NCBI RefSeq assembly: GCF_963675165.1
Contig: NC_087379.1
Coordinates: 4,853,442 to 4,917,441 of the forward strand
DNA from: Halichondria panicea
Taxonomy: Eukaryota > Porifera > Demospongiae > Suberitida > Halichondriidae
DNA length: 64,000 bases
Reading direction: 5' to 3'
The notes under the pieces are model-generated. The model was given only the letters and a program-made list of their open reading frames with translations. It searched no databases and was not told the origin of the DNA. Positions within the stretch are counted from its first letter, which is position 1, and each line of letters opens with the position of its first letter. Below, piece after piece: positions 2,364-54,000 of this stretch. The position numbers and the translations under genes are program-made.

Positions 2364-5300
2364 TTAGTCCTCTAGCTTTTCAAATTGTGCATAAAATCCT
2401 CTGAACGATCCTGGGGAAGACACCTCCAGAATCACAGTCAAGATACTTCCTATCCCTGGGACTATGTGATCGGTACACTTCTCTCCACACATCTTCTCAA
2501 TCAATTGACCCTCACTTCTAAATCCATCGTACACCGCAACAGAATTAGACGAGCATTGCTCACTGTTGGGAATATCAAAATACTTGAAACGAACTTGGGC
2601 AGAACCGAAGGTAATCCAAGTGCATGAAATTGTACCAGTGATAGGGCCTGAGGGAAGATTAGCAGGTCCGAAACGTTGACCCATCGGCATGACTCCACCG
2701 CAAGCAAAGTTTTCTTGAGGGTTGGATAGTAAAACAGGGCAATTCGGAGTAGGTGGTGGTAGTGTAGTTGGGGCAATGGTGGTTGGAGGTGTAGGGGGTC
2801 TAGTAGTTGGCCTGGTGGTGGGTAGGGGAGTGGTTGGATCTGGTGATGTCGTGGCTACTGTAGTTGGCCTGGTGGTAGGTAGGGGAGTGGTTGGACCTGG
2901 TGATGTCGTGGCTACTGTAGTTGGCCTGGTGGTAGGCGGGGGAGTGCTTGGACAAACTATCGTGTACTCAATCCTGAATCCCGTACGTTTTGATCCATGA
3001 TATGGTCCAGCAAAGAAGTATAGTGTGGTATTGCCAGTTGCAGTGATGAGAGAAGGTCTACCAAGATCATAAATGGTGTGAATTAAGCCGGTAGTATCGT
3101 GGATCTTCAAATAATCTTTGGGACAGTTTTCAGTTGTTTTTCCAGCTATCCCAAAAGCTAAATCATCAAATGTGAGGCGAACATTGCATCCTGGAGAAGG
3201 AACTTGGATGTTCCATTCACAGTTAAAATTTAAGGGGTAGGTCGTGGGCCAGGCAGGTGTTTGGAAGCTTCCAGAGGCACCTGTGAAAAGACTTGGCCCA
3301 CATATAGTAGCAGGTGTGGGGGGCTGTGTGGTCGGTGTTGTTGTGGAAATTGTGGTGGTTCTGGTTGTGGGTGGAGGGACAGTAGTTGGAGTAGTAGGGG
3401 GAGCAACAGTTGGTGGGGCTGTATATGAAGTAATGTATTAGATCATAATTATAAAAGGATAGAAATGATTTTTCTAAGGCATCTGTATAGCTGGTCTTAT
3501 GTAATAATTTCTGCGAAATATGAACAAATGATCAAATGTGGGATCTCATGCATTTGTTTACCCAACATATGCTAAACAGATCATTGTATAACTTATGTGT
3601 TCCCTCTATCCCACACACACCCACACTCATATGCATGGGAAATTGTTTTAGTGCCCACACGATCTGAAAACATGTACATATTTAGTAATGTCCCTAGCTC
3701 ACATAGTATAATGAAAAATACTTGTGGTGACTTACCAGTAGGTGGTGTTGTTGTGCAGCTCAGACCATCTGCTTGTAGGTAGTAGCCAGGATTACATTTG
3801 CATATATAAGAGCCTCCAGTGTTGTCACAAATATGATCACATCCTCCATTATCGTATGCACACTCATTGAAATCTGCACGAAAACAAGTGTTTGTGTACA
3901 TGATCATGACAATCACAGTTAGTGCTTATGCATGTGTTGAGGTAGGCAATTCGAGTTAAATGCTATTATTATAGCCTCTGAAAACATTAGAGCTGCATTA
4001 TTCACTTACCAAAGCAAGTACTTGCTGCTGGAGAGTGATAGTATCCATTTTTACATTCACAGCGGTACGATCCGTCAAGATTTGTGCATGTGTGACATCT
4101 GTTTGATTGGCCACCACACTCATTGATGTCTGTAGTCAATTATGCACATGCATGGTAGGTTAAAATAATGTGTACATCATAACTATAGAGAGTATAATTA
4201 TGACCATGTAGGCCAGTCTAAATAATTATTGTAGTTTCGAATTCTGATTGATTCACTCCATGCTATAGGGATGGTAAATTTATGTTCTACATATCTACGT
4301 ACAGTCAAATTGTGTAAACCGCTAGCCAATTAAAGTGCCTACCAATTGTTGAGAAGTCCACCCGAAGTCCCCGCGGTGTACCAGGTCCTGTGTTGCTGCT
4401 ATCAGTGTGGTAGTAGACAGTTGCTGTGTTGTCATACACATAGTTTGAGGTGTATATCTGGCTAGAGCTGCAAAATTTGCCATCTCTAGCATTTCTTGAA
4501 AGATATTCACCATCCTCGGGGTTTATAGATCGTCCAGTAAATACTTGGACATAGTCTTTAATGCACCCAGCACTGTAATTGGAGAGTGTATCTGATAAGA
4601 GTCTGAGAACAACTCATACACTTGTACATGTTTTGACAAATATTTTGTGCTGCTACAAATCCGCCAAAATAACAGAGAAAAATCTGAAAACGTCAAAATT
4701 ACTCCCTGTCTATATATAATAGTAACATTAAGGTAACTATCCGTTCTAGAACTGAAACACTAGATTGTAGTAGCTTGCCAAACCACAAACATACATTAAG
4801 GTGTCTGCTATGTCAATCAAAAGTAAAGGGCGTACAGACAATGGAATCTATGAGTGTATAATTATTATACACAGTAACGATTAATAGTTTTCTGGCAGCG
4901 AAGTTACCTCTGCTCTAGGCTGAGTCCTGGAAAACTCAGGCGAACTCTGTATCCTTCAGGCACCCGAATCACCCATGCACACCTCTGATTCACAATATGG
5001 TTGGGATAACTCGGTGAGTAGAATGTTCCACTTTTACCTTCCATAACTCCACCGCATGTGATTCCGTCCGGAAGGGTCAGGGCTTTAGTACTTTGTGGGT
5101 AGGTGCTAATCGGGGGCCTTGTAGAACCTAATATTATAGTATAAAATATATTACACTTACACTTACTAGTACTATGCAGGCAGGACACTCACCACATCGA
5201 TAAAGGGCATTTGCTTTAAGGATATCCAAAGGGCTTAGTTCTTGTGCAGAGCCGAACACAATTCCTTCGTCTTTCGCTACAATAGTCGGATTGCTACGGG

Positions 5301-8229: not shown

Positions 8230-11200
8230 TTAAATTTTTTGTGATTGTGCATAGAATCCTCTGAACGATCCTGGGGAAGACACCCGCAGAGTCACGGTCA
8301 TGATATTTCCTGTCCCTTTGACTGTGTACTCGCCACACTTCTCCCCACACATCTTCTCAATCAATGGAGAATTTGAACCAGTTCCAAATCCATCGTGCAC
8401 CGAAACAGAATTAGACGAACATTGCCTACTGCTGGGAATATCGAAATAATTGAACACGACTTGGAATGGTCCAACACCGAAAATTATCCAATTGCATTCA
8501 GGCTTTGTAGTGCCAAGGAAAGGCCCAAAGGGCAGATTAGTAGGTCCGAAACTTTGACCTATCTGGAAGAATCCACCACAACCGAACGTTCCTTGAGGGT
8601 TGGATGGTAAAACAGGGCAATTCGGAGTGGGTGGTGGTAGCGTAGTGGGAGCGAGGGTGGTTGGAGGTGTGGTGGGTCTAGTAGTTGGCCTGGTGGTGGG
8701 CAGGGGAGTGGTTGGATCTGGTGATGTCGTGGCTACTGTAGTTGGCCTGGTGATGGGCGAGGGAGTGGTTGGACAGACTATCGTATACTCAATCCTGAAT
8801 CCCGTACGTTTTGGTCCATGATATGGTCCAGCAAAGAAGTATAGTCTGGTATTGCCAGTTGTAGTGATGGGAAAAGGTCTACCAAGGTCACAAATGGTGC
8901 GAATCAAGCGGCCGTTATTATTGTAGATCTTCAAATAATCTTTGGGACAGTTTTGAGTTGTTTTTCCAGCTATTCCAAAGATTGAATGGAATGTGAGGCG
9001 AACATTGCAACCTGGAGAAGGCACTTGGATGTTCCATTCACAGTCAAAATTGAAAGGGTAAGTCGCAGGCCAAGAAGGAGTTTGTAAGCTTCCAAAATCA
9101 TCTGTTAAACTTCCACCGCATAAGGAAGGAGGAGATGTGGTAGGACGGGTGGTGGGTCTAGTAGTTGGCCTGGTGGTGGGTAGGGGAGTAGTTGTATCTG
9201 GTGATGTCGTGGCTACTGTAGTTGGCCTGGTGGTAGGTAGGGGAGTGGTTGGATCTGGTGATGTCGTGGCTACTGTAGTTGGCCTGGTGGTAGGTAGGGG
9301 AGTGGTTGGATCTGGTGATGTCGTGGCTACTGTAGTTGGCCTGGTGGTAGGCGGGGGAGTGGTTGGACAGACTATCATGTACTCAATCCTGAATCCCGTA
9401 CGTTTTGGTCCATGATATGGTCCAGCAAAGAAGTATAGTCTGGTATTGCCAGTTGTAGTGATCGGAAAAGGTCTACCAAGGTCACAAATGGTGCGAGTCA
9501 AGCGGCCGTTATTATTGTAGATCTTTAAATAATCTTTGGAACAGTTTTCAGTTGTTTTTCCAGCTATTCCAAAGATTGAATTGAATGTGAGGCGAACATT
9601 GCATCCTGGAGAAGGCACTTGGATGTTCCATTCACAGTCAAAATTGAAAGGGTAAGTCGCAGGCCAAGAAGGAGTTTGTAAGCTTCCAAAATCACCTGTT
9701 AAACTTCCACCGCATAGGGAAGGAGGAGATGTGGTAGGACGGGTGGTGGGGGGTGTAGTAGGACGGGGGGTAGGGCGTGTAGTAGGACGGGGGGTGGGAC
9801 GTGTAGTAGGACGGGGGGTGGGGCGTGTAGTAGGACGGGAGGTGGGGCGTGTAGTAGGACGTGGTGTAGTTATAGTGGGAGGGGGTGTCACAGGACATGA
9901 TGACGGCAATTGTGGTGCAATTGGCAATGAACGGTTAGCTGCAATAGAAAAAAATCAGGTAATTTATTGCTATACAGCTACGCTCTGCTAAAGCTGTTGA
10001 TGATATGGAACTTTACAGGCACAAAGCAACTTACATTGTCTAGGTCCACAGCTTTTGCCATCCGATTGTACGTACTGACCAAATGGACACTGACATCTGT
10101 AAGAGCCACCCATGTTGACACATTTGTATTCACACCCTCCATTCTGGTAGGCACATTCGTTTATATCTGAATACAAGTGTGGAAGACAAATTAATGATAA
10201 CGTGGTCTTTGTTGAATAGCACACTAACTGAAGATCATTTGTAAAACATATTTACACGTACCGTAGCAGGTTGTCGCAGCTTTTGAAAAATAGTAACCTT
10301 TTTTACAACTGCACTCAAATGAACCCTGAGTATTTCTACAGTTGTCACATCTGGCACTTTGACATTCATCCTCATCTGTGCACATAGAAAAATAATTACC
10401 ACACGTTTTACGTTAATTGATTGTAGGAGTCTAGCTAACTTATCAGTTTCTAAGCAAATTCAAGCCTGCCTGCATCCTAACTCTTACCTAAACAGGTGAT
10501 TTTAATTTGAAGTCCAGTGCTTCCCCCAAAACTGTCAGTTCGATAAAAGACGGTAATAGTGTTGGTACTTGCAAAGAATCTTGTTCGACTGTATCGATTT
10601 CCGCAGATCCTTCCATCGGTGAGACCACCATATCTAATAATATCCTGATTGTCCAAGCTCGAACCAAAATAGAGTTGAGCATAATCTTTAGTACAACCAG
10701 AGCTGGAAAAAAAACATATCAGCTCAGCTAGTACATAGTTTTCATAAATTATTCGATTTTCAATACCTTGATTCTAAGTTCATTGATGGAAATTCGATTT
10801 GAGGAAGGAAACCACTGGGACATTGAAACACAAAGGCACACGCTTGATTTGGGAGGTGAGATGGGTACCCACGGGATCGTACTGTTCTCATCTCACCACC
10901 ACTCAGAACCTCCACTGTTCCACAGCGGCTGAGGCTGGGGTTCACAGGAGGTAAGGCCGGTGGAACAACAGTGTTCGGAGGAGAAAGTGGGCAAGCTGGA
11001 AAATGACAATACAAAGAATAAGGTATAGGTCACTGTAATCTGTCCTGATTGACTTACGGCAGTTGTAGAGCTTGTTTGCCTTTAATATGTCCAGAGGACT
11101 CAGTTCCTCAGCCTCTCCAATTGGGATGTCAGGTTGGTTGGTTTGTATGGTTTCACTTCGTCCATCTCTTGAGAATGCTCTGCTAGAGTAGTGCATGATA

Positions 11201-12236
11201 CTGGCATAGTCATAGCCTAGTCCAAGGGTGTTTCCATAGCTTATTCCAAACGCTCCAGTGATGCCAGGAAAAACATTATTTTGCAGGATAGTCACATATT
11301 CATCCCTGTCACTACGACTATGTTCATGGTAGAATCCAATTGCATGGCCAAACTCGTGGACTGCAGTAGAAAATCGGACACAGTTGGGACCAAGAAACAA
11401 TGGTTGAGGTCGTATTCTTGTCCGTCCTAGGTAAGATCGACAGCTGCAAGTAGAGTGAGCTTTGTGATTTTAATGATTCATGCACGGGATAATACAATAG
11501 GAAATATTTATATGGCATGCACTTACTCTCCAGGTGAACTGGTCACTATTCGAATGGAGTAGGTATCAGAGCCTCTAGGGCGAAAACGAATGCAAGTGTT
11601 CTCTTCCCAATGACGCATTGCTTGCAGTATGATCCTCCTCTCCTGAGCTGCATGCACATTTCGAAAACAGATAAACGAATGCTCAAAGTATATTTATACT
11701 CACCATCAAACTCGGGTGCTATCTCGTAAGGGATAATCCCACCAGGCCATAGGTTTGACACGGCATTTCTTTTGTTCCGGTACTGTTCACTGTTTTCTTG
11801 CTCCATTGAAGAGTCTTCGAACATCATGTCTTCAATTTCTTCGGTGTTCTCTACAGTAAAACATACATGACAAACAAATTTGACAATAATATTTATGGGG
11901 CCAAATATAAGAGCCAGGAATACTGATTCATAATTCAGAAGCTCTATCCTGATTCTATAGCCTTGGTATAAGAATCAGGTTCATGGAATGCCGTGCACAT
12001 GCAGTGGAAATCTATACTATTGCCTCACCATAATGTTTTTCGATGACATGCTCCCCATTGGCATTGTATGAAAATCCAAAGACTCCTTTAGCTTGACTTC
12101 GAGGTTGGTTGAGGCTATGCAGCTCAGTAGGGGCATCATCTGTGAGCTGGCTGCTGTGGTCACTAATGGTAGGTAAAGCATTTGCTGCAAGCAAGAGTGC
12201 AGCTGTGAATGCAGTGAAAACTGCAAGTTGTTCCAT
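8230..12236 (-). CDS. Secreted astacin metalloprotease, four-CUB form (ast2, copy 1)
   Basis: The nine exons are 12029..12236, 11704..11850, 11527..11647, 11058..11443, 10767..10995, 10488..10702, 10262..10375, 10035..10166 and 8230..9938, totalling 3261 nt (1086 aa). The signal peptide is MEQLAVFTAFTAALLLAANA. The propeptide ends in RNKR before NAV. The zinc motif HEFGHAIGFYHEH starts at residue 188, followed by SRSDRDEY and the Met-turn SIMHY. Then come CUB1, two EGFs, a Thr/Pro/Arg linker, CUB2, linker, CUB3, linker and the divergent CUB4. CUB2 and CUB3 lie in one exon and are nearly identical, so they arose by a recent in-exon duplication. Linkers are built of repeats such as [19 protein letters not shown] and are probably heavily O-glycosylated. 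Intron positions match ast1. It is probably a secreted active protease; the substrate is unknown. Confidence 0.85.
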
Positions 12237-13954: not shown

Positions 13955-16900
13955 TTAAATTTGTTTAAATTGTGCATAGAATCCTCTAAACGATCCTGGG
14001 GAAGACACCCGTAAAGTCACAGTCAAGATACTTCCTGTCCCTGTGACTGTGTACTCGCCACACTTCTCCCCACACATCTTCTCAATCAATGGAGCACTAG
14101 TTCCAAATCCATCATACACCGAAACAGAATTGGACGAACATTGCTCACTGCTGGGAATATCGAAATAAGTGAACATGACTTTGAATGTTCCAGCACCGAA
14201 AATTATCCAATTGCATTCAGGATTTATGGTGCCAGGGAGGATAGGGCCTAAGGGCAAATTAGTTGGTCCGAACATGTCATTAACGTTCATGAATCCACCA
14301 CAAGCAAACTTTCCCGGAGGGTTGGATGGTAAAACAGGGCAATTCGGAGTGGGTGGTGGTAGCGTAGTGGGGGCGAGGGTGGTTGGAGGTGTAGTCGTGG
14401 TAGGGCGAGTGGTAGGTCTAATAGTTGGACCTGGTGTTACCGTGGCTACTGTAGTTGGCCTGGTGGTGGGCGGGGAAGTGGTTGGATCTGGTGATGTTGT
14501 GGCTACTGTAGTTGGCCTGGTGGTGGGTATGGGAGTGGTTGGATATGGTGTTGTTGTGGATACTGTAGTTGGCCTGGTGGTGGGCGGGGGAGTGGTTGGA
14601 CAGACTATCGTATACTCAATCCTGAATCCCTTACGCTTAGGGCCGTGCTTTGGTCCAGCAAAGAAGTATAGTCTGGTATTGCCTGTTGTAGTGATGGGAG
14701 AAGGTCTAGCAAGGTCACAAATGGTGTAATTCAATTTCTCGTATATTTTCAGGTAATCTTTGGGGCAATTTTGAGAAGATTTTCCTGCTATTCCAAATGC
14801 ATTAATATCAAAGCTCAATTCAACATTGCAGTCTGTCGATGGCACCTGGATGTCCCATTGACACTCGAAATTTACAGGGTAGGTCTCGGGCCAGGATGGG
14901 GTTTGGATGCTACCAGCGGCAGCAGTTGACAATCCTCCACACAACAAGATAGTTTTAGGATCAATGATGTCTTCTATAGTAGTCTCAATTACGATCGTTT
15001 CAGGCTCAATTACAAACTCAATTTTATCGAGAGTACAAGAATGTCCGTCCGGTTGAAGAGTGGATCCGCTATCACAAAAGCATTGATATGATCCGTCAGA
15101 ATCTGTACAGTGACCAGAACATCCACCGTTGTTGTCTGCACACTCATCGATATCTGCAGACAAACAAAAAGAGTGAACACAAAGCATGTACACGTAGAAG
15201 ATCTGAAAGCTTGTATAGTATATTTTGGTAATGTGCTTTGCTACAACTACGTAGGAAAAAAACTAAACACACCTTCGCAAGTAAGTCCATTATCTGCCAA
15301 TTTGTATCCCTTGGAACAGTTGCATTCGTACGACCCTGGAACGTTTGTGCACAAATCTTGACAGCCTCCATTTCTTGTGAGGCACTCATTCACCTCATCA
15401 CAAGACACCCTGTTAGATGAGAGGTCGTACCCCTTAGGGCATAAACATCTCGCCGTATCAACGTCACCAGGGACAACCTCACAGGAATGCTCACAATTGG
15501 CAATCAAACAAGGGTCCACGGTATCATCTATGTGAGAAATAATTCTGTCATATAAATATATTGTATAGGTATAATGACTGTTCGACTAACAGCGTGTCTA
15601 TGAAAACTAAACGCACCTTCACAAGTAAGTCTATTATCTGCCAATTTGTATCCCTTGGAACAGCTGCATTCGTACGACCCTGGAACATTTGTGCACAAAT
15701 CTTGACAGCCTCCATTTCTTGTGAGGCACTCATTCACCTCATCACAAGACACCCTGTTAGATGAGAGGTCGTACCCCTTAGGGCATAAACATCTCGCCGT
15801 ATCAACGTCACCAGGGACAACCTCACAGGAATGCTCACAATTGGCAATCAAACAAGGGTCAACGATATCATCAGCATCTACGTGAGAAACAAGTTATTTC
15901 ATTATTTCTGCTATATAAATATTATAGGTATAACGACTGTTTGACTAAAAATTCTGTCAGTGTGTCTATGAAAATTAAAAGCACCTTCACAAGCAAATCC
16001 ATTATCTGCCAATTTGTACCCCTTGATACAGCTGCATTCGTACGACCCTGGAATATTTGTGCAGAAATGTTGACAGCCTCCATTTCTTGTGAGGCACTCG
16101 TTCTCCTCATCACAAGACACCCTGTCTGATGAGAGGTCGTACCCCTTAGGGCATAAACATCTGGCCGTAAGAACGTCACCAGGGACAACTACACAGGAAT
16201 GCTCGCATTTGGCAATCAAACAAGGGTCCATGGTTCCATCACCATCTGAGAAACAATTAATCTATATCACGACTGTTTGGTTTAGAATCCTAGCACTAAA
16301 GGAACATGTAGAGGAATAAGCTAGCCGTGTGCAAATAATTATGCATACATGTACATACCTACAACACATGTTTTCCCATCAGAGAGTAGCCTGTAGCCAT
16401 CCTCACACACACAGTGGAAAGAGCCGCCTTTATTTATACACTTGTGATCACAGCCCCCTTTGTCCAGGGCACATTCATTCACATCTACACGGAAGAGAAA
16501 AATAAATATAGGTATACATGTATGATTTTGTATCGACATACTTACCAAAACATTGCTTGTGGTCACTGGATAAGAAGAATCCTTTAGGGCAGTGACATTC
16601 ATATGATCCAGGAAAGTTTGTACAGTTGTGAGAACAGTATGCACCATACGCACACTCATCGAAATCTTCAGACTCAAATCTTAAATTGAATCCTTTCAAG
16701 CCAGCCCTCTGATTTGAGCTATCAGTGTGGAATCGAATGTACGCAATATTGGTAGTCGTATAGGTGTTGATAATTCGATCCGATGATTGACAATACTTTC
16801 CGATACCGTATCCATTTTGGTTAAAGTTCTCGTGAATATGTAAGTAGTCATTTACACAGCCTCGGCTGTAAAGGGTGAAAATGAATAATCATGAATCACT

Positions 16901-18538
16901 CTATGTCAATAGTACATAACATCAGCATGAGGGGATAAATACGTAAATGCTATACACCTATATACTAACATACATCAATTTATTATTCTTACTTGTAGTC
17001 CATATCCAGTTCTACTGTGAACCTTATTCGATACCCCTCTTCAACTCTGATTGTCCACTCGCAGTCGGTATCGTGTGAGTAGACGCCATAGTCTGGTGAG
17101 CTGAAGGAGCCATTCGAGACACCATCGAAGACACTGCCACATGCAAACTCGTGAGGTGGAAGGGTTGGCTCGGACACTATCTCATCTGGCACAAAGGTCG
17201 TTCTTGGGGGGTGGTCTTCAGTAGAATCTAAGATGGGAATAAGTAACATGATACGTCATTTTAATCGGTCTATGCATGCAGAAACTTAACTATCATAGCA
17301 CTAAAAGCATGCATAAAATAACATCTGCTGGCTGTGAAATGGCTTTTTAAACTGTCATTTTAAGATCCTTACTTGAGCATTTACAGAAGAGGTTGGCTCT
17401 AAGGATATCCAGAGAACTCAAAGTATGGGCTTCTCCAACTGGTATACTTGGATCAAGTGCAACTATCGTATCCAGATGAGAACTGTGTGCAAAAGAGTTT
17501 TTATCGTAATGCATAACACTGTTGTAGTCGTATCCAACTCCAAGTAAATCCACTTCATCATGACTGAGTTTTGTGAACTGTGAGAGTACACTCCTCCCCG
17601 GTTTAAGATTATTCTCGATTATATCAATGTACTCGTCTCTGTCAGGCCTGTTGTGTTCGTGGTAGAATCCGATAACATGTCCAAGCTCATGCACTGCACT
17701 ACTAAATGAAAAGCAAGACGGGCCAATCGAAACCCTCTGTTGATTGGATGTTCTGCCAACATATGATCCACACCTAGACAATACAGATAGAAGTGATAAG
17801 CAACCAAATTCATTGTAATTTTGCTGTATCACCATTCAAATACAATCATCTCGCTATTGTTGCTAATTCACAGTTATAACCAATGTTGAATAGAGATGGT
17901 ATACCAGTGCATCTATACTATATCTCACCCTGGACCAGGATAGATGAAGATGTAATTATCTTCAGTTGTCCTCTTCCTAAAGCGTACGCAGGTGTGCTCC
18001 TCCCAATGCGCCAATGCCTCGGTTACGACACGCTGTTGTTTCTCTGCAATAGGTTGTAATTGTAAAATATAATTAAGATTATTCATGGATGTTCGCGACT
18101 ATAAAAATGTCCACACAATACACAATACCAGGTACAAATACTCACCAGAATAGAATTCATCTATAATGTAAGGAATGACACAGTTGGGCCATTGCCAACT
18201 CTTGGGGTTGACAACGGCTCTCTTTTGTTTTCCCTGCGAGGACTCTTTATAACTCAGCTTCTCATTCAATAGCTCTCGGTAGTTCTTTGTGAAGTAAGTT
18301 ATATCTCCAACTTTTATTGTGAAATCTGCGCAGTGGACAGTAACATTGTTAGTGTGTGTGAAACTACTCATCCCAATTTCTTGAACTTACCAGTGTCTAC
18401 AGTTGGGTCATAAACAATTGTCCTTTCTTCAGCAATTTCATTATTTTCCCTTACATCTTCAATTTTAATTGGTAAGCACTCCACTGCATATGTAGTTGTC
18501 AAAGCAAGCAGACACATTAACAAAGCTTGATTCTTCAT
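13955..18538 (-). CDS. Secreted astacin metalloprotease with expanded EGF array (ast3, copy 1)
   Basis: Eleven exons: 18391..18538, 18146..18325, 17929..18043, 17373..17773, 16993..17227, 16546..16865, 16359..16484, 15985..16245, 15617..15877, 15273..15527 and 13955..15153, 3501 nt in all (1166 aa). Signal peptide [20 protein letters not shown]; propeptide ends KQKR before AVVNP; zinc motif [13 protein letters not shown] from residue 176; Met-turn SVMHY. Downstream are CUB1, EGF, EGF, three exons each coding a pair of EGF-like modules (DPCLIA...[13 protein letters not shown]...CEG), another EGF, CUB2, a Thr/Pro linker and the final CUB. Exon 6 joins the second half of CUB1 directly to the first EGF, where ast1 and ast2 have an intron. 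The EGF expansion is unlike ast1 and ast2 and probably lengthens the tail or adds binding sites. Confidence 0.85.
15273..16245 (-). repeat. Tandem triplication of an EGF-pair exon in ast3
   Basis: The three exons at 15985..16245, 15617..15877 and 15273..15527, with their introns, are tandem copies with starts about 350 to 370 bp apart. The last two encode nearly identical proteins and the first is more diverged. All are symmetrical phase 1-1 exons (261, 261, 255 nt), so copies can be added or lost without breaking the frame. Confidence 0.85.
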
Positions 18539-25680: not shown

Positions 25681-26110
25681 CAAGTCTTGGCTGTGTGTAT
25701 TGTTCAGTACCATATAATTGTGAGATTGTTTTACCCTCAGCTGGTGTGTCTATGAACCACTCTTAGTAGCAAACAGAAGATGTAATAGTGCACAAAGAGA
25801 ACAATAAAGGGCCTTCCTGGTGATATAGCTTGGCAACCCTACTAATTGCACAAGTTGTGTGGGCACTTCCATGTCAGGGGGTACTTTTAAGACTGGGGGG
25901 TTGCTGTTTGTCCAAATTCTAGTGGGCCATTTCCAGCCAACTTCCTGCCTTGTTGGGTTTCCATAATATAGCCAATAAACTTCTTGCGAAGGGAAATACA
26001 GCGATCACATTACCTTTCCTCTCACCCAGGATGCTTCCCATGCATCCGGGCTCTGTGTTTAAAGGTTTCTTTAATATACCTATCCATTTTTGTGGTGATT
26101 ATACCAGTGA
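25681..26110. other. ast4 intron 3, right part
   Basis: Non-coding sequence shared with copy 2 (61735..61980) up to ~25937. Copy 2 then skips 25937..27308, removing ast4 exons 4 and 5. Confidence 0.5.
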
Positions 26111-28155
26111 ATGATCGAGTTCTTGTTTCCTTTATCCTGCCAGTACAATGAACTCACTGGTATTAATTGTCATGTTCTCAGTTGCTGTTCCTATGTTGGG
26201 AGAATTGACTATGACCGTCAACCACAGGGAGTTTCGATTGGTCGTTTCTGTTTCAACTTTCACCCAATTGTGCACGAGATCAGCCATGTTGTTGGTTTCT
26301 GGCACGAGCAGAGCCGACCGGACCGTGACGAATACATCGATATCATCGAAGGCAACATAGTCCCTGGTTATGAGACAAATTTCCAAAAGATTCTGTCATG
26401 GCGGATTGATTCTCAAGGAGTCAGTTACGACTACAACAGTATCATGCACTACGATTCCAACTTTTTCTCCAGAAATCCCTTTGTAGACACCCTCAGGGCA
26501 AAGGACCCGTCCATCCCAGTGGGAAAGCTCGAGTACTGAGCAAGTTGGATATCGAACAAACAAATCTATTGTATACGTGTGGTGAGTTCTGTAGTGGGCT
26601 AGACGTTGGGTCTGGGTGTTTTAATGGTGGTTTAGTTTGTGCTGCTCAATTTTCAAAACTGTCACTGTCACTTGATATCCCTACTCTGCACTAACTACTG
26701 CCCATATGTATGTGTCTGTAATAGCAAATCCAGACCTTTCATTGAGCTGGTTTCCACCACTTGAAATATGTCTTAATTTAATTGGTGCGTACGTACTGCA
26801 CGTAATAATATTATGCTATTGTGTGTACGATACCCCATACAGATACGAAAAACATGCCCCCGCCCAGTGTGATCCTTCTTCCTCTGCCCACACCCCCTCC
26901 ATTCCCCACCGTTCCCTACTCCTGTGTCGAGCATTTGACGGCTCTGAAAGGATCATTCCAGTCTCCTGGCTACCCACTCTATGAGCACAATACGGACTGT
27001 GTCTGGATGATCAAGGTTGTCGATGGTTACACAATTCAGCTGATATTTGATCCAATTGAATTGGAAAACACGTACGTTGCACATGTTACAGTGTAAGCAC
27101 TTGTTTTGGCAATTTGGAGCCGGTAGGATCATTGCCAAATAGCATAAGAGGAATCTACTGTCCCACTAGAGAGAGAATTTCATATTTACATTATAATGTA
27201 CATGTACGTAGCAGTTTCCTACGTATGTCATGTACTTATAAAATTATGTGCTAGACAAAAGAACGTGTAGTAGTGCATAGCATCTTCTTCCTATAATATT
27301 ATAGTAATTATCTAATATGCAGTGGCATGCACTTATGAGGTTGTAGCTAGTGGGAGGAAATTTCTCTAATATGACCTTCAACTCTTTAATTTGTGATATC
27401 CTTACCAAGTATCAGTAATTTTCCACTGGCTTCAAGTCTCCTTTGAAATATAATTACACCACCTGTGTACACAAATTGTTTGCGTGTGTTTATTCAACCT
27501 CCCACTTTCCTTTCCGACAATTTGGTGAACCTTACCGCGTCCTTAGCCATTGCATGGCTTCACGAGTGCATGCACTGCTTATGGTAGATCGACATGTGAG
27601 GACATAGTTATTGCATGCTTTCCAATTATTAGCTGGGGATTTGTTTGGATGTTTTTGAATTCATTACTGCACTAAATATAGTGTAGATACATGTGTACTA
27701 GCTGTCATGACATGCGTGTCATTAAATTGGTTTGTGAGTTGGTTTAATGCATGCCTGTAATCCTATATGGACAATATTACCAACTCATTGACACCTTTAT
27801 ATATATATTAGAATTACGTAGCAGCTCACAATTTGTTCTGTATAATTATCTATACTCCTAATCTGATGACTTGAGCGCTGTAACCCTAACAATCTGTATG
27901 ACATCACACATCTTGCTTGCTTATCCTATAAACTAACCCTCTCATCCAGGCACCAGTGCGTCAAGGATTACATCAAAGTGTTTGATAATCTCCATGGAAG
28001 CGGGGACGGCCAAGTGATTTGTGCCTATTACAATGTCTACAATTACAGACTACAAACAAACACAGCACGGATACATTATCACAGTGACCATGACAACGAT
28101 CAATCACGCACACTCACACCACTCGCTGGATTCAGGGCCTCTTATAAAGTCGTAG

Positions 28156-31288: not shown

Positions 31289-32824
31289 TGATCCTTTCTA
31301 CGTATAAGATATAATTCAAGAGCAAAAACATGTCTTGATGGTGCCATTTCACAATCTACCTGAGTACATGTTGGCCACTAAAAGCCAATAAAAAGTGCCT
31401 TAAAAGCGAAGCACCCACTTACGGTGCATCCTAGCTTGTGGTAAGGAAAACCTTTCTATATAATTATGGTCTGTCTTGTTTTTTATTGTGGACAAACCCA
31501 TTTGCACTCCCTCACAGTCTGCTCACAGTAATTAGTACCTCTTCATATAACGTAAACACAGCACTGATTCCCAGAAGTACATGTATATAGTCATAATATG
31601 GAAATAGAGCTGTAGGTTTTTCCCATTAATTTTCTCTGGTTCTTTCACATAGAAATGCCCAGCCGCTGCGTGTGTCCTACATCCCACCATTAGCACACTA
31701 GAGCCACGTACAGCCATAGCAATGATTGTCTAAGAACGCTCATTGAAGTATAATATTATACAGTCTATGTTTTGCTCTGTGCTGCATCCCTCTCACATCA
31801 AATAGTCATAGCAATTGTCACCACAAAATTGTGTGGAACTGCATTATCCGAGACCCATTTGCAATGTTTTCACAATTATGTTGAACTGGTTAATCGTCAG
31901 AACAAAAACCGAAGCGTGTAAATGTGGTGTGTTTATAGCTATTTTCTTTATGTGAACTTAGAAGTGCTCTGTCAGGTTCCCAATTTGCAATGCTATGAAA
32001 GCATGATCAAAGCTCTAAGTACGTATAGGCGGAGAGAAACCTGATCTCTTGCACAGATAAAAGTATTACTGCACAAGCAAACTATGACAGCCACAGCTAT
32101 AAAAGAGACTCAAAGTAGTCATATGTGGTTCTGCACGAAAGGTGAATACGTTTTGGCTTTGTTTGTGTAAGTGTTTGAAAACTTTCCTTTGATGATATTC
32201 GATATTCAATATTTCTCCCTTTAATGGTATCTATTGCATGCTGTAATTTTCAAAGGTGAATATGCTGTAATCAAATGATGTAGTCAGAGATATGTCAGAA
32301 TGTGACTTAATACCATTTTGTGTTTGCACAACAAAGTGTTCTTATGATCTTATGAAATTACATACCACCACGTTTCAAATATGATTATTGCTGTGGACAC
32401 GTCATATAGTCAAAGAGTTGCTGGGCACTTGCAGTTGCTATGAAATACCATATTAGTATCTTTAGTGATTTTAACGAGCAGCCAAAAAGTCATATTACCT
32501 TGGCTCATTTTCCTTGCACCAGGCAGAAGATCATTCAACACTTCCTTAGTTTCGTGGAAGTGAATACAGTTGTCATGTTTGGCTAATCTTATCATGTATA
32601 TTGTCACCCCACCTAAGAGTAACACGATAAGTACATGCTATAATTTGTTATCCTAACCAATAGTACATTAGTCAAATTTGTGAACATTTCTAATTTATAC
32701 TACCAACGGGTACGGGTTTCCCTGGAAGCTAACATGAATACCTTGAATGCACTAATACTGAACTCTCCATGCATTCGATACGTGTCATCGTTACATTCAC
32801 ACGTACTTGCATGCACTCTCTCAG
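31289..32824. other. ast4 intron 6, right part
   Basis: Non-coding; shared with copy 2 from ~31428 (62812 onward). No exon found before the EGF exon at 32825. Confidence 0.5.
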
Positions 32825-33188
32825 ATATCGACGAGTGTGTGTATACACACTGCTCTCACAGCTGTCGCAATCTTCCCGGCTCCTACGAGTGTCGATGCCC
32901 TCGGGGCTTCTTCTTGTCTGCAGATGGACACAACTGTTTTGGTGAGCTAGCCGATTCTGTTTTGAGAGCCCTTCTTGATGGCCACCCATATCTATAACTA
33001 TATGAATTTATAGACTTGTACTGGTTGTTTAGCAACATTGCTAAACTTGATGCATTTGAACTCAAAAGGTGCTTACGTAACTACTAAGTATTCTACCATG
33101 CACAACTAGACCCATATAATTTAAACAACTAGAATAGACCATCCATTTCTAGGAACCATGACTCATTAATTCTTGCTTACATACAGTA

Positions 33189-33716
33189 GTAGGTTGAATC
33201 ATTCAAAGTTGAATGTTGAAGTGAGTACTCACACCACTAAACCACAAAGCTGATACAACTGTAAGTGGCTGTCACAGCCTGTCAGTGTGATGATGCCCAT
33301 GCATGATAATACACAGCACTGACTACATGTGTGGGTGTTCATCTAGATACATATTCAAATGACTTGAGGTGCAGAGTGTTGCTACACTACTTAAGCAAAC
33401 CAAGTAAGAGAATTAATGTACATCAGCAAAAGTACTGTAAAAGAATAGAGCATTTGTTCTGGAGAAGTGGAGATGTCGAGCCAAAGTAGCAAAGGCATGC
33501 ATGGTCCTCATCCTATGTTAATTGAATCCGTAAACAGTGCTACAGATACTCTTTGAAAATCTAGGCACTTACTTAGGAGAAGTTCAAGCAAAGATACACA
33601 TACATTTGTACATAATTATGAAGCTTGTGGGTAGATCATAATCATGATCAGCTTTGTTTTGTGGTTTAGTGGTGTGAGTACTCACTTCAACATTCAACTT
33701 TGAATGATTCAACCTA
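33189..33716. mobile_element. MITE with ~65-bp terminal inverted repeats
   Basis: GTAGGTTGAATCATTCAAAG at the left end; its exact complement closes the element at 33716. The arm continues through AGTGAGTACTCACACCACTA. It lies in ast4 intron 7 and carries no ORF. Confidence 0.75.
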
Positions 33717-34141
33717 CTTGATGTATTGCCTGCATGCATGAATGCCATTGTGTTCCACTGAGGTAACTGGCATTGCCGCTACAAAGAATGTTGTGTCCCT
33801 TCCATACGTGAGGTGTGTGCATGGGATGTGGTAGCCAGTAGGCTCTATAAATAAGTGGGTTATTAGCCTCATTACAGAGATATTTTCCAAAAAGGAATAT
33901 CATGTAACAAAACAGTAACTATAATTATAATAATTAATTATGCATGTATACATAATTATTGTTGATACTATAATTATGATTAATTGTCACAGTACATGAG
34001 CTTATCTCTTTACACAGACATGAACGAGTGTGCTCTTGGCAATGGAGGATGCGATCATCAATGTGTCAACACGGGAGGTTCCTTTAGTTGTGGGTGTCGC
34101 CCTGGTCGCATCTAATTGGAGATAGGACGAGGTTACTCTGC

Positions 34142-34191
34142 TAGCCTCGATTACAGGCCTCTCAAAATACATTGTTTTGGAATCAAGGCTA
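34142..34191. mobile_element. Short foldback element just after the ast4 stop
   Basis: TAGCCTCGATTACAGGCC...GGAATCAAGGCTA, a degenerate small relative of the TAGCCTCG foldback family, 26 bp past the ast4 premature end. Insertion here could have removed the remainder of the EGF exon. Confidence 0.45.
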
Positions 34192-34499
34192 GGTGGCTAC
34201 ATTTTTACTAGGACACCACATAATAAAGTCAACGCAACAGTCCCTAATTTTAGAGGTTAGAAAATTGTCTAATTGGAGAATCACTAAAAATACGGTCTGT
34301 AACTCTTTCAAGAAGTAGTTCAAATTCAATCATGTATCAGCACTCTCTGGACAGTTTTTGCTAACTCTTAAAAGGTTGCAATGGTATTCCAATTAGTAAG
34401 CACAACTCTGTGACATAGCCAAGATTTTTGGTTGGGACGTGCTCTCTTAGATTGATGCTAGTGCAATCTGGAGAGTCCATTGTTATGTACAATGATAAG

Positions 34500-34920
34500 T
34501 ACTGTATTTACTTGATTAAACGCCTAGGCGTTTATTTCCTAGCAGCATCTGTAGAGGGGGCGTTTAAACGAGATGGGCGCTTATTCGAAACGGGCGTTTA
34601 TTGTTTTGTCTACTTCAAACTCTTGCTCATCAGCAGTTATTATGCTCTTTTTGGCTGCTGCCACAGCTCTCAGCTTCAATCTCAAGTCGTAGGAGTGGTG
34701 TTTCTCCCTCTGTGCCCTCTCTGCCATCATAAATAGTATCTATTTATTCTATGCTGCCCTTGTTTCAGCTGGTTCCACGTGCTCCACCCACAGTGCCACG
34801 CCCCATACATGGGCGATTATTTAAGAGGGGCGTTTATTGACAAAGACAGAGCTTTACTGTGGGCGTTTAAACGAGATGGGCGTTTAATCAAGGAGGGCAT
34901 TTAATCAAGTAAATACGGTA
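34500..34920. mobile_element. Tc1/mariner-like MITE with GGGCGTTTA repeats
   Basis: Ends TACTGTATTTACTTGATTAA and complement TTAATCAAGTAAATACGGTA with TA at the borders. The interior repeats GGGCGTTTAAACGAGATGGG in both orientations. No transposase. Confidence 0.7.
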
Positions 34921-35400: not shown

Positions 35401-35441
35401 CTAAGTAAGTTAGTAAGTAAGTAAGTAAGTAAGTAAGTAAC
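35401..35441. repeat. TAAG/AAGT tetranucleotide microsatellite
   Basis: About ten units of AAGT-type repeat; the reverse-complement version (TTACTTAC) is at about 60330..60360 in the inverted copy. Confidence 0.8.
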
Positions 35442-35698
35442 TTTCTTGGAAAGCATTTCCTCCTTGTACAGACATGTTCAGAAGATTCTAGATACAGCCT
35501 CTAGTTGACTAGAACCCGGACCATGGGCGTTTTTCTCAGAATTGCGTCCGCTTCCAAGAGGCAGATGACCTCTCAGGCTCCACTTTTCTTACCTACGCAA
35601 TTCCGCCATCTTTAAATGAGTGCCACAGCAACGCACATGGCAACTTATGAGGTGGGCGTGGCTGTGACATCGATAAACACAAAACCATAGATAGTAGT

Positions 35699-40757: not shown

Positions 40758-42822
40758 TTAGTCCTCTAGCTTTTCAAATTGTGCATAAAATCCTCTGAAC
40801 GATCCTGGGGAAGACACCTCCAGAATCACAGTCATGATACTTCCTATCCCTGGGACTATGTGATCGGTACACTTCTCTCCACACATCTTCTCAATCAATT
40901 GACCCTCACTTCCAAACCCATCGTACACTGCAACAGAATTAGACAAGCATTGCTCACTGTTGGGAATATCAAAATACTTAAAACGGACTTGGGCAGAACC
41001 GAGGGCAACCCAAGTGCATGAAATTGTACCAGTGACAGGGCCTGAGGGAAGATTAGCAGGTCCGAAACTTTGACCCATCGGCATAACTCCACCGCAAGCA
41101 AAGTTTCCTTGAGAGTTGGATAGTAAAACAGGACAATTCGGAGTGGGTGGTGGTAGCGTAGTTGGGGCAATGGTGGTTCGAGGTGTAGGGGCTCTAGTAG
41201 TTGGCCTGGTAGTGGGTAGGGGAGTGGTTGGATCTGGTGATGTCGTGGCTACTGTAGTTGGCCTAGTGGTAGGTAGGGGAGTGGTTGGACAGACTGTCGT
41301 GTACTCAATCCTAAATCCCGTACGTTTTGGTCCATGATATGGTCCAGCAAAGAAGTATAGTCTAGTATTGCCAGTTGCAGTGATGAGAGAAGGTCTACCA
41401 AGGTCACAAATGGTGTGAATCAAGCCGGTAGTATCGTGGATTTTCAAATAATCTTTGGGACAGTTTTCAGTTGTTTTTTCAGCTATCCCAAAAGCTAAAT
41501 CATCAAATGTGAGGCAAACATTGCATCCTGGAGAAGGAACTTGGATGTTCCATTCACAGTTAAAATTTAAGGGGTAGGTCGCGGGCCAGGAAGGTGTTTG
41601 GAAGCTTCCAGAGGCACCTGTGAAAAGACTTGGCCCATGCACATATAGTAGCAGGTGTGGGGGGCTGTGTGGTCGGTGTTGTCGTGGAAATTGTGGTCGT
41701 TCTGGTTGTGGGTGGAGGGACAGTAGTTGGAGTAGTAGGGGGAGCAACAGTTGGTCGATTAATGGCTCGGTAAGTGATTTTAAATCCCGTCCTCAGAGGC
41801 ACATGATCTGGTCCAGCGTGGAATACTAGTTGAACGTTATTAGAGGTAGTTCTGATAGGAGCAGATGGCGGTTCTAAATCACAAATAGTGTGTGTTAGTG
41901 CTCTACCATTGTAAATCTTCAGGTAGTCCTTAGGACAATTCTCAATGGTTTGTCCGGCAATTCCAAACACTGTATTAAATGTTAGTTCAATTACTTGGTT
42001 TGAATTTGGAATGCTGATTGTCTATTCACAGTCGAAATTGAACGGGTAAGTCTCGGGCCACTGTGGAGTTTGTAGAGTTCCTATGGCAGATGTTAGTGCA
42101 CCCCCACATGTCGGTGGAGTAACAGTTGGTGGGGCTGTATATAGTAAGGTATTAGATCATAATTATATGGAAATAATTTCTAAGGCATCTGTATATGGCC
42201 GGTCTTATGTGTATAAAATCATTTCTGCAAAACACGAATGATCAAATGTGGAATCTCACTTGTTTACCGCCAACATATGCTAAACAGATCATTGTATAAC
42301 TTATGTGTTCCCTCTATCCCACACACTCCCACACTCATATGCATGGGAAATTGTTTTAGTGCTACACTACTTAGCAGCCCACACGATTTGAAAACATGTA
42401 CATATTTAGTAATGTCCCTAGCTCACATAGTAATGAAAAATACTTGTGGTGACTTACCAGTAGGTGTTGTTGTGCAGCTCAGACCATCTGCTTGTAGATA
42501 GTAGCCAGGATTACATTTGCATATATAAGAGCCTCCAGTGTTGTCACAAATATGATCATTATCGTATGCACACTCATTGAAATCTGCACGAAAACAAGTG
42601 TTTGTGTACATGATCATGACACTCACATATGCATGTGTTGAGGTAGGAAATTCGAGTTAAATGCTATTATTATAGCATCTGAAAACATTGGAGCTGCATT
42701 ATTCACTTACCAAAGCAAGTACTTGCTGCTGGAGAGTGATAGTGTCCATTTTTACATTCACAGCGGTACGATCCATCAAGATTTGTGCATTCTGTTTGAT
42801 TTGCCACGACACTCATTGACGT
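40758..42822 (-). pseudogene. ast1-like relic without catalytic domain but with an extra CUB
   Basis: Three exons remain: 42711..42822 (EGF1, 8 bp shorter than ast1, shifting into a TGA), 42458..42583 (EGF2, 12 bp shorter in frame, losing one Cys and both Gly of NGGC) and 40758..42134 (1377 nt versus 1055 in ast1). The longer terminal exon contains an additional CUB (TCGGALTSAIGTLQTPQWPE onward) before the first Thr linker. That CUB has TAG in place of the Trp after CE (42022..42024), and a 4-bp insertion near 41637..41641 breaks the frame before the next CUB. No signal peptide, propeptide or astacin exons remain. The relic suggests the ancestor of ast1 had four CUBs. Confidence 0.8.
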
Positions 42823-45537: not shown

Positions 45538-48500
45538 TTAGTCCTCTAGCTTTTCAAATTGTGCATAAAATCCTCTGAACGATCCTGGGGAAGACACCTC
45601 CAGAACCACAGTCAAGATACTTCCTATCCCTGGGACTATGTGATCGGTACACTTCTCTCCACACATCTTCTCAATCAATTGACCCTCACTTCCAAATCCA
45701 TCGTACACCGCAACAGAATTAGACGAGCATTGCTCACTGTTGGGAATATCAAAATACTTGAAACGAACTTGGGCAGAACCCAAGGTAATCCAAGTGCATG
45801 AAATTGTACCAGTGATAGGGCCTGAGGGAAGATTAGCAGGTCCAAAACTTTGACCCATCGGCATGAATCCACCGCAAGCAAAGTTTCCTTGAGGGTTGGA
45901 TAGTAAAACAGGGCAATTCGGAGTGGGTGGTGGTAGTGTAGTTGGGACAATGGTGGTTGGAGGTGTAGGGGCTCTAGTAGTTGGCCTGGTAGTGGGTAGG
46001 GGAGTGGTTGGATCTGGTGATGTCGTGGCTACTGTAGTTGGCCTGGTGGTAGGTAGGGGAGTGGTTGGACTTGGTGATGTCGTGGCTACTGTAGTTGGCC
46101 TGGTGGTAGGCGGGGGAGTGCTTGGACAGACTATCGTGTACTCAATCCTGAATCCCGTACGTTTTGGTCCATGATATGGTCCAGCAAAGAAGTATAGTGT
46201 GGTATTGCCAATTGCAGTGATGAGAGAAGGTCTACCAAGATCACAAATGGTGTGAATTAAGCCGGTAGTATCGTGGATCTTCAAATAATCTTTGGGACAG
46301 TTTTCAGTTGTTTTTCCAGCTATCCCAAAAGCTAAATCATCAAATGTGAGGCGAACATTGCATCCTGGAGAAGGAACTTGGATGTTCCATTCACAGTTAA
46401 AATTTAAGGGATAGGTCGTGGGCCAGGCAGGTGTTTGGAAGCTTCCAGAGGCACCTGTGAAAAGACTTGGCCCACATATAGTAGCAGGTGTGGGGGGCTG
46501 TGTGGTCGGTGTTGTCATGGAAATTGTGGTGGTTCTGGTTGTGGGTGGAGGGACAGTAGTTGGAGTAGTAGGGGGAGCAACAGTTGGTGGGGCTGTATAT
46601 GAAGTAATGTATTAGATCATAATTATAAAAGGCATCTGTATAGCTGGTCTTATGTGTATAAAAATAATTTCTGCGAAACATGAACGAATGATCAAATGTG
46701 GGATCTCATTTGTTTACCGCCAACATATGCTAAACAGATCATTGTATAACTTATGTGTTCACACACACCCACACTCATATGCATGGGAAATTGTTTTAGT
46801 GCCCACACGATCTGAAAACATGTACATATTTAGTAATGTCCCTAGCTTACATAGTAATGAAAAATACTTGTGGTGACTTACCAGTAGGTAGTGTTGTTGT
46901 GCAGCTCAGACCATCTGCTTGTAGGTAGTAGCCAGGATTACATTTGCATATATAAGAGCCTCCAGTGTTGTCACAAATATGATCACATCCTCCATTATCG
47001 TATGCACACTCATTAAAATCTGCACGAAAACAAGTGTTTGTGTACATGATCATGACAATCACAGTTAGTGCTTATGCATGTGTTGAGGTAGGCAATTCGA
47101 GTTAAATGCTATTATTATAGCCTCTGAAAACATTAGAGCTGCATTATTCACTTACCAAAGCAAGTACTTGCTGCTGGAGAGTGATAGTATCCATTTTTAC
47201 ATTCACAGCGGTACGATCCGTTAAGATTTGTGCATGTGTGACATCTGTTTGATTGGCCACCACACTCATTGATGTCTGTAGTCAATTATGCACATGCATG
47301 GTAGATTAAAATAATGTATACATCATAACTATAGAGAGTATAATTATGACCATGTAGGCCAGTCTAAATAATTATTGTAGTTTCGAATTCTGATTGTAGA
47401 ATGCACTTCACTCCGTGCTATAGGATGGTAAATTTATGTTCTACATATCTACGTATACAGTCAAATTGTGTAAACCGCTAGCCAATTAAAGTACCTACCA
47501 ATTGTTGAGAAGTCCACCCGAAGTCCCCGCGGTGTACCAGGTCCTGTGTTGCTACTATCAGTGTGGTAGTAGACAGTTGCTGTGTTGTCATACACATAGT
47601 TTGAGGTGTATATCTGGCTAGAGCTGCAAAATTTGCCATCTCTAGCATTTCTTGAAAGATATTCACCATCCTCAGGGTTTATAGATCGTCCAGTAAATAC
47701 TTGGACATAGTCTTTAATGCACCCAGCACTGTAATTGGAGAGTGTATCTGATAAGAGTCTGAGAACAACTCATACTTGTACAAATATTTTGTGCTGCTAC
47801 AAATCCGCCAAAATAACAGAGAAAATTCTGAAAACGCCAAAATTACTCCCCGTCTATAATAGTAACATTAAGGTAACTAGAACTGAAACACTAGATTGTA
47901 GTAGTTTGCCAAACCACAAACATACATTAAGGTGTCTGCTATGTCAATCAAAAGTAAAGGGCGTACAGACAATGGAATCTATGAGTGTATAATTATTATA
48001 ACACAGTAACGATTAATAGTTTTCTGGCAGCGAAGTTACCTCTGCTCTATGCTGAGTCCTGGAAAACTCAGGCGAACTCTGTATCCTTCAGGCACCCGAA
48101 TCACCCATGCACACCTCTGATTCACAATATGGTTGGGATAACTCGGCGAGTAGAATGTTCCACTTTTACCTTCCATAACTCCACCGCATGTGATTCCGTC
48201 CGGAAGGGTCAGGGCTTTAGTACTTTGTGGGTATAGGTGCTAATTGGGGGCCTTGTAGAACCTAATATTATAGTATAAAATATATTACACTTACACTTAC
48301 TAGTACTATGCAGGCAGGACACTCACCACATCGATAAAGGGCATTTGCTTTAAGGATATCCAAAGGGCTTAGTTCTTGTGCAGAGCCGAACACAATTCCT
48401 TCGTCTTTCGCTACAATAGTCGGATTGCTACGGGACTTTGCAAACGAAGTACCAGTGTAGTGCATAATGCTGGCATAGTCATAGCCATAACCTAATGTAA

Positions 48501-51012: not shown

Positions 51013-54000
51013 TTAAATTTGTTGAAATTGTGCATAGAATCCTCTGAACGATCCTGGGGAAGACACCCGCAGAGTCACGGTCATGATATTTCCTGTCCCT
51101 GTGACTGTGTACTCGCCACACTTCTCCCCACACATCTTCTCAATCAATGGAGAATTTGAACCAGTTCCAAATCCATCGTGCACCGAAACAGAATTAGACG
51201 AACATTGCCTACTGCTGGGAATATCGAAATAATTGAACACGACTTGGAATGGTCCAACACCGAAAATTATCCAATTGCATTCAGGCTTTGTGGTGCCAAG
51301 GAAAGGGCCAAAGGGCAGATTAGTAGGTCCGAAATTTTGTCCTATCTGGAAGAATCCACCACAACCGAACGTTCCTTGAGGGTTGAATGGTAAAACAGGG
51401 CAATTCGGAGTGGGTGGTGGTAGCGTAGTGGGGGCGAGGGTGGTTGTAGTTGTAGTCGTGGTAGGACGAGTGGTAGGTCTAATAGTTGGACCTGGTGTTA
51501 CCGTGGCTACTGTAGTTGGCCTGGTGGTGGGCGGGAGAGTGGTTGGACAGGCTATCGTGTACTCAATCCTGAATCCCGTACGTTTTGGTCCATGATATGG
51601 TCCAGCAAAGAAGTATAGTCTGGCATTGCCAGTTGTAGTGATGGGAAAAGGTCTACCAAGGTCACAAATGGTGCGAATCAAGTGGCCATTATTGTTGTAG
51701 ATCTTCAAATAATCTTTGGGACAGTTTTGAGTTGTTTTTCCACCTATTCCAAAGATGGAATGGAATGTGAGGCGAACATTGCAACCTGGAGAAGGCACTT
51801 GGATGTTCCATTCACAGTCAAAATTGAAAGGGTAAGTCGCAGGCCAAGAAGGAGTTTGTAAGCTTCCAAAATCACCTGTTAAATTTCCACCGCATAGGAA
51901 AGGAGGAGGGGGTGTCACAGGACATGATGACGGCAATTGTGGTGCAATTGGCAATGAAGGGAAAGCTGCAATAGAAAAAAATCAGGTAATTTATTGCTAT
52001 AAAGCTACGCTCTGCTAAAGCTGTTGATGATATGGAACTTTACCAGAAAGCTAATTTTAAGGCACAAACCAACTTACATTGTCTAGGTCCACAGCTTTTG
52101 CCATCCGATTGTACGTACTGACCAGGTGGACACTGACATCTGTAAGAGCCACCCATATTGACACATTTGTATTCACACCCTCCATTCTGGTAGGCACATT
52201 CGTTTATATCTGAATACAAGTGTGGAAGACATGATAACGTGGTCATTGTTGAATAGCACACTAACTGAATCATTTGTAAAACGTATTTACACATACCGTA
52301 GCAGGTTGTCGCAGCTTTTGAAAAATAGTAACCTTTATTACAGCTGCACTCAAATGATCCCTGAGTATTTCTACAGTTGTCACATCTGGCATTTCGACAT
52401 TCATCATCATCTGCGCACATAGAAAAATAATTACCACACGTTTTAATATTATGTTAAAATTGATTGTAGAAGTCTGCTAACTTATCAGTTTCTAAGCAAA
52501 TCCTAACTCTTACCTAAACAGGTGATTTTAATTTGAAGTCCAGTGCTTCCCCCAGAACTGTCAGTTCGATAATAGACGGTAATAGTGTTGGTACTTGCAA
52601 AGAATCTTGTTCGACTGTATCGATTTCCGCAGATCCTTCCATCGCTGAGACCACCATATCTAATAAGATCCTGACTGTCCAAGCTCGAACCAAAATAGAT
52701 TTGAGTATAATCTTTAGTACAACCAGAGCTGAAAAAAAAAAACAGATCAGCTCAGCTAGTACATAGTTTGCATAAATTATTCGATTTTCAATACCTTGAT
52801 TCTAAGTTCATTGATGGAAATTCGATTTGAGGAAGGAAACCACTGGGACATTGAAACACAAAGGCACACTCTTGATTTGGGAGGTGAGATGGGTACCCAG
52901 GGGATCGTACTGTTCTCATCTCACCACCACTCAGAACCTCCACTGTTCCACAGCGGCTGCGGCTGGGGTTCACAGGAGGTAAGGCCGGTGGAACAACAGT
53001 GTTCGGAGGAGAAAGTGGGCAAGCTGGAAAATGACAATACAAAAATAAGCTATAAGTCACTGTAATCTGTCCTGATTGACTTACGGCAGTTGTAGAGCCT
53101 GTTTGCCTTTAATATGTCCAGAGGACTCAGTTCCTCAGCCTCTCCAATTGGGATGTTAGGTTGGTTGGTTTGTATGGTTTCACTTCGTCCGTCTCTTGAG
53201 AATGCTCTGCTAGAGTAGTGCATGATACTGGCATAGTCATAGCCTAGTCCGAGGGTGTTTCCAGAGCTTATTCCAAACGCTCCAGTGATGCCAGGAAAAA
53301 CATTATTTTGCAGGATAGTCACATATTCATCCCTGTCACCACGACTATGTTCATGGTAGAATCCAATTGCATGGCCAAGCTCGTGGACTGCAGTAGAAAA
53401 TCGGACACAGTTGGGACCAAGAAACAATGGTTGAGGTCGTATTCTTGTTCGTCCTAGGTAAGATCGACAGCTGCAAGTAGAGTGAGCTTTGTGATTTTAA
53501 TGATTCATGCACGGGATAATACAATAGTTATATGGCATGCACTTACTCTCCAGGTAAACTGGTCACTATTCGAATGGAGTAGGTATCAGAGCCTCTAGGG
53601 CGAAAACGAATGCAAGTGTTCTCTTCCCAATGACGTATTGCTTGCAGTATGATCCTCCTCTCCTGAGCTGCATGCACAGTTCGAAACAGATAAACGAATG
53701 CTCAAAGTATAACTATACTCACCATCAAACTCGGGTGCTATCTCGTAAGGGATAATCCCACCAGGCCATAGGTATGACACTGCATTTCTTTTTTTCCGGT
53801 ACTGTTCACTGTTTTCTTGCTCCATTGAAGAGTCATCGACTTCGAACATCATGTCTTCAATTTCTTCGGTGTTTTCTACAGTAAAACATTCATGACAAAC
53901 AAATTTGACAATAATATTTATGGGGCCAAATATAAGAGCCAGGAATACTGATTCATAATTCAGAAGCTCTATCCTGATTCTATAGCCTTGGTATATAGTA

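Follow-up and report, generated by a model that had tools for sequence, protein, structure and literature searches.

A whole-module difference in CUB number within one exon of a sponge astacin gene pair

Two copies of an astacin-type gene, ast2, lie in a 64,000-nt stretch of the Halichondria panicea genome (hereafter the window), and their terminal exons differ by one CUB module with the reading frame kept. We consider it probable that the build of the exon accounts for this: it holds a string of CUB modules joined by Thr/Pro minisatellite linkers, and misalignment of the linkers adds or drops a CUB in frame. The gene models and their terminal exons are:

8230..12236, minus strand: ast2 copy 1, whole gene, nine exons, 1086 aa
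51013..54262, minus strand: ast2 copy 2, whole gene, nine exons, 836 aa
8230..9938, minus strand: terminal exon (exon 9) of ast2 copy 1, 1709 nt, three CUB modules
51013..51965, minus strand: terminal exon of ast2 copy 2, 953 nt, two CUB modules

The coordinates, lengths (1709 vs 953 nt) and frame given for the two terminal exons in the first-pass annotation proved correct. Each exon has an AG acceptor upstream, an open frame and a TAA stop at its end, and GT/AG junctions run throughout both nine-exon models. The gap between the exons (1709 − 953) is 756 nt, or 252 codons. The Pfam CUB profile (PF00431, cut-off 21.4) scored 142.8 bits over three stretches of the copy 1 exon and 91.2 bits over two stretches of the copy 2 exon, counts that bear out the claimed difference of one CUB. 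The label "polymorphism" attached to that difference is unsupported as stated: both copies stand on one sequence, and it is unproven because they share one collinear duplicated tract and could be either paralogues or joined haplotypes.

Astacin metallopeptidases carry an HExxHxxGxxH zinc motif and an SxMHY Met-turn as their signature, and the translations read HEFGHAIGFYHE in copy 1 and HELGHAIGFYHE in copy 2, with SIMHY in both. A structure search with copy 1 as query matched 75 distinct sequences; among the best 60 of these 75, the best solved-structure match, to residues 101-289, was 3edi_A, the catalytic domain of human Tolloid-like protein 1 (E 1.4e-46), and crayfish astacin 1ast_A matched the copy 1 catalytic domain at E 1e-35. 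The modules of ast2 run in the order astacin, CUB, EGF and EGF, followed by a Thr/Pro linker and, all within one exon, three or two CUBs. The predicted product is a secreted astacin-type zinc protease with a C-terminal arm of CUB modules. In transcript order, the copy 1 exon consists of a short head, a 24-nt array, CUB-a, 57-nt units, CUB-b, a linker and a terminal CUB, and the copy 2 exon of a head, one CUB, a short linker and a terminal CUB:

9760..9855, minus strand: 24-nt array of copy 1, four matched units (TTRPT[PS]RP), absent from copy 2
9364..9717, minus strand: CUB-a, first CUB of exon 9, copy 1
9178..9348, minus strand: 57-nt minisatellite linker of copy 1, three units of 19 residues, pattern ending [PT]TTPLP
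8770..9123, minus strand: CUB-b, second CUB of exon 9, copy 1, unlike CUB-a at 11 of 354 nt
8245..8622, minus strand: terminal CUB of copy 1
51544..51897, minus strand: single middle CUB of copy 2
51028..51405, minus strand: terminal CUB of copy 2

From CUB-a to CUB-b the repeat unit of copy 1 measures 594 nt (198 codons), and the lead-in TTRPTTSPPSLCGG precedes both CUBs. By pattern count, the number of 57-nt units ranges from one to three across the six terminal exons examined. Our analysis supports the earlier reading of repeated CUB/Thr-Pro units inside one exon, with whole modules gained or lost in frame, and confirms that CUB-a and CUB-b are nearly identical (96.9% identity).

Because the arm is encoded in one exon and the linker repeats are multiples of 3 nt (24 and 57), module number would change in frame. 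Misaligned recombination or slippage between linkers would gain or drop a CUB and leave the frame intact, the process probably being unequal crossing-over, slippage or conversion. The linkers of the arm are predicted to be stiff, and their Thr/Pro residues are probably O-glycosylated. An extra CUB may give a longer C-terminal binding arm with one more potential contact, and could alter contacts with substrate or matrix. Recombination between short repeats is a known route to length change in modular proteins and the most likely one here, and the unequal recombination between units first proposed for this exon is largely right in kind.

The 756 nt do not represent the single removal of one CUB plus linkers that had been described; we find instead two or more changes in length, together with a linker tract of the ast3 type. 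In blastn comparisons, the copy 2 exon matches copy 1 at the head (nt 5-61) and then from nt 805 to 1709, which resolves the 756 nt into a 747-nt block and, in the linker that follows it, a net 9 nt. The block contains the 24-nt Thr/Pro array, one CUB and the 57-nt minisatellite, and its 747 nt could reflect separate events of 594 nt (CUB and minisatellite) and 153 nt (array). The change preserves the frame, yet a direct-repeat test found only about 5 nt (CCTCC) shared between its breakpoints, too short to pin the crossover sites. When exon 9 was aligned automatically, copy 2 received gaps of 751, 3 and 6 nt, and copy 1 gaps of 1 and 3 nt; we take the 751/1 pair, not itself a multiple of 3, as misplacement in the repeats.

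By chance alone, one length difference in three would be divisible by 3. Of the changes that separate the two copies in exons 1-8, 25 are nonsynonymous and 8 synonymous, as expected without constraint (binomial p = 0.68 against neutrality), which weakens any claim of strong sequence selection on both copies. The ast2 frames are kept all the same: the lone indel in exons 1-8 is 6 nt long, whereas among the 11 intron indels that separate this pair, just one has a length divisible by 3.

In copy 2, the linker between the middle and terminal CUBs is not simply a shorter version of its copy 1 counterpart. It resembles that of ast3, a further gene in the window:

51406..51525, minus strand: ast3-like linker tract of copy 2 (exon nt 441-560), equal to ast3 at 26 columns and to copy 1 at none
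14358..14486, minus strand: corresponding linker of ast3

With gap columns counted as columns, copy 2 equals copy 1 at 51 columns and ast3 at 6 over exon nt 561-953, and equals copy 1 at 11 and ast3 at 3 over exon nt 404-440, a stretch in which ast3 aligns poorly. Locally, the copy 2 linker stretch matches ast3 at best at 185/196 without gaps and copy 1 at best at 194/227 with 11 gaps, and a 17-nt signature occurs at two sites in the window, in ast3 and in copy 2. The copy 2 exon is therefore a mosaic, its linker being ast3-like over about 120 nt. This linker can be explained by gene conversion from, or exchange with, ast3; replacement in copy 1 of an older linker once shared would explain it equally. 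Elsewhere in ast3 (15246-16257), a two-EGF stretch stands in three tandem copies that are 88-89% alike and spaced 344 and 368 nt apart.

A CUB is also present or absent among the copies of ast1, where the junction is bounded by repeats; this case is new here and cleaner than that of ast2:

2364..3437, minus strand: terminal ORF of ast1 copy A, two CUBs, one hybrid repeat whose 5′ end is at 3414
45538..46611, minus strand: terminal ORF of ast1 copy B2, junction as in copy A, repeat 5′ end at 46588
41755..42130, minus strand: extra CUB unit of ast1 copy B1 (a broken gene), 375 nt with a ACCAACTGTT repeat on either side

Copy B of the duplicated tract holds an additional ast1-like gene, B1 (40758-42130), which a nonsense codon and a 4-nt insertion disrupt. 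Its upstream CUB is matched by Pfam at E 1.2e-6 (profile positions 33-110), and this extra CUB is about 70% identical in DNA to the ast2 CUBs; it is old, and bears on the direction of change at ast2. Two copies of ACCAACTGTT, a 10-nt linker repeat, lie 375 nt (125 codons) apart in B1, and ast1 A and B2 each contain it once, with the left flank of the first copy and the right flank of the second. Judged from the sequence, this is the pattern that a deletion between direct repeats would leave, and the change at ast1 is both frame-preserving and bounded by direct repeats. Since the gene is broken, B1 is less informative on working proteins, and a three-CUB ast1 protein is putative. CUB number differs at two loci, because ast1 B1, too, has a CUB absent from its two sister copies. 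The window thus shows a change in module number at two neighbouring loci, one of which has a junction bounded by repeats.

The close similarity of CUB-a and CUB-b had been read as a sign of recent exchange, a reading that lacks support: CUB-b is as close to the middle CUB of copy 2 (11/354) as it is to CUB-a (11/354), with CUB-a and copy 2 differing at 16/354. Between copy 1 and copy 2, differences elsewhere amount to 33/1552 in exons 1-8, 22/712 in introns and 6/378 in the terminal CUB. The divergence of CUB-a from CUB-b (11/354) is no different from that of the remaining copy 1/copy 2 sites when pooled (61/2642, Fisher p = 0.35), from coding sites between the A and B copies (39/1930, p = 0.23) or from introns (22/712, p = 1.0), so recent exchange is unsupported. 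Dating by coding, intron or pooled sites does not separate the CUB-a/CUB-b event from the copy split, and the added CUB is accordingly about as old as that split.

Whether copy 2 lost a CUB that predates the copy split, as opposed to a later gain in copy 1, depends on evidence that points both ways, and we regard loss as plausible but somewhat short of probable. The equal distances (11/354) from CUB-b to CUB-a and to copy 2 favour it. Among the 19 sites that vary in the trio, 8 isolate CUB-a, 8 isolate copy 2 and 3 isolate CUB-b. At the 8 sites where CUB-b agrees with copy 2 against CUB-a, the ast1 copies match CUB-a at two (119 and 177), and where CUB-a agrees with CUB-b the outgroup matches copy 2 at 0 of 8 sites, both as loss would have it. 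Against loss, ast3 conflicts at site 177 and matches CUB-b at two of the three sites where CUB-a agrees with copy 2. Outgroup states unite CUB-b with copy 2 at one or two sites and CUB-a with copy 2 at up to two, the latter from ast3 only, and at no site do they unite CUB-a with CUB-b; in a tree of seven middle CUBs, CUB-a, CUB-b and copy 2 form a star, which leaves the trio open. A single middle CUB is present in each of the three other ast1-type exons and in ast3, in the frame examined, and by parsimony the one middle CUB of ast1 A, ast1 B2 and ast3 favours gain.

The two ast2 copies belong to a tract in which positions 1-2896 match 38392-41290 at 97.0%, with a collinear chain extending to 32324/64000; of its 22 one-kb bins, 16 have no more than 4% substitutions and six have 4.3-7.6%. 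About 4.1 kb of ast3 (14153-18270, vs 56583/56584), including the catalytic exon 17347-17835, is without counterpart in copy B, where the tail of the terminal CUB directly adjoins an early exon region. A further 1.4 kb (25930-27315, vs 61987/62002) is likewise missing from copy B; in copy A it contains the catalytic exon (26111-26539) of a plus-strand astacin. Pieces of a DAO (FAD-dependent oxidoreductase) gene occur at 1454-1735 (E 3.4e-10) and at 37756-38088 (E 2.9e-4, below the curated cut-off); seven short patterns for the DAO-like N-terminal FAD-binding part gave 0 matches upstream of 37756 on the plus strand of 32000-38400, a motif search that decides nothing on whether the duplication edge cuts the gene of copy B. 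Long inverted repeats at 36492-37046 and 59210-59769, with arms of 136 and 129 nt that are 98% complementary, both resemble insertions of small mobile elements.

True tandem paralogy with a segment period of about 38.4 kb, under which the CUB difference is divergence between paralogues and no allele, is in our judgement evenly balanced between right and wrong. The sequence is unbroken, with no N among its 64,000 bases, the period is 38,391 nt at the left end (position 1 matches 38392), and whole genes have been gained and lost between the copies; however, both outer boundaries of the duplication fall outside the window. Haplotypic false duplication, in which two haplotypes of one heterozygous animal were set in tandem and the CUB difference is allelic at one locus, is a serious contender, though we stop just short of giving it even weight. 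Collinearity across coding and non-coding DNA, with large insertions and deletions between the copies, would fit it, as would dN about equal to dS in exons 1-8, which segregating variation can resemble. Sponge assemblies can contain many false duplications: reports describe 472 removed from the Rhopaloeides odorabile assembly (PMC13224822) and 12.6% duplicated single-copy genes in E. muelleri (PMC10542158). Against haplotypes stand the extra ast1 gene of copy B and its want of most of ast3, and also the N-free window, as false duplications are described as gap-separated in most cases (PMC9516828). An assembly or consensus error inside the exon, producing the extra CUB of copy 1 or the absence from copy 2, is very unlikely: the exon does consist of near-repeats, which assemblers can collapse or expand, but CUB-a and CUB-b differ by 11 distinct substitutions and by their linkers, both exons are open, and the copy 2 linker is of another type, not expected from plain collapse. 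If the copies are alleles, they would offer a natural series for studying how one more CUB affects an extracellular protease; should they instead be an artefact of haplotype assembly, they warn against counting two genes.

In ast2, as in BMP1/tolloid (BTP) proteases, CUB and EGF-like modules come after the astacin catalytic domain. Two of the BTP forms, BMP-1 and mTLD, differ in CUB number. These are given as the two main splice variants of the BMP1 gene (PMC10696041). BTPs are described as having five CUB and two EGF-like domains (PMC9848320); ast2, with four or three CUBs and two EGF-like modules, has a different composition. Unlike BTPs, it also places three or two CUBs in one exon after a Thr/Pro linker. 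By description, it is like the echinoderm astacins BP10 and SPAN, whose layout is astacin, EGF, a Ser/Thr-rich stretch and CUBs. The presence of CUB in echinoderm astacins is noted in one source (PMC9848320). Titles and opening lines of abstracts on sponge and tandem astacins and on domain duplication held no mention of a CUB-number change within one astacin exon. Searches for relatives of the copy 1 exon gave 92 pattern matches in prokaryote contigs, 0 of them confirmed, an absence that is weak in such collections, and 3 in viral contigs, also with 0 confirmed, where absence says little.

The closest parallel in kind is DMBT1 (salivary agglutinin), which like ast2 is secreted and combines CUB domains and repeated modules with Ser/Thr-rich glycosylated linkers and a variable module number. 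DMBT1 alleles are reported to carry 7 to 21 SRCR domains, and module number to alter binding, a short allele failing to bind a strain of S. mutans (PMC9038570). In DMBT1, however, the varying module is SRCR (SRCR/SID copy number) and the variation is seen among people, whereas in ast2, a protease, it is CUB number that differs, between two copies on one sequence. That CUB number is standing allelic variation under selection, the counterpart of DMBT1 in a protease of an early-branching animal, with the linkers as a switch for arm length, strikes us as highly improbable, although such a reading may fit copies that are perhaps haplotypes, CUB number varying at two loci, and dN about equal to dS. 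The process itself is already known, and ast2 and ast1 are a new example of module-number variation as in DMBT1.
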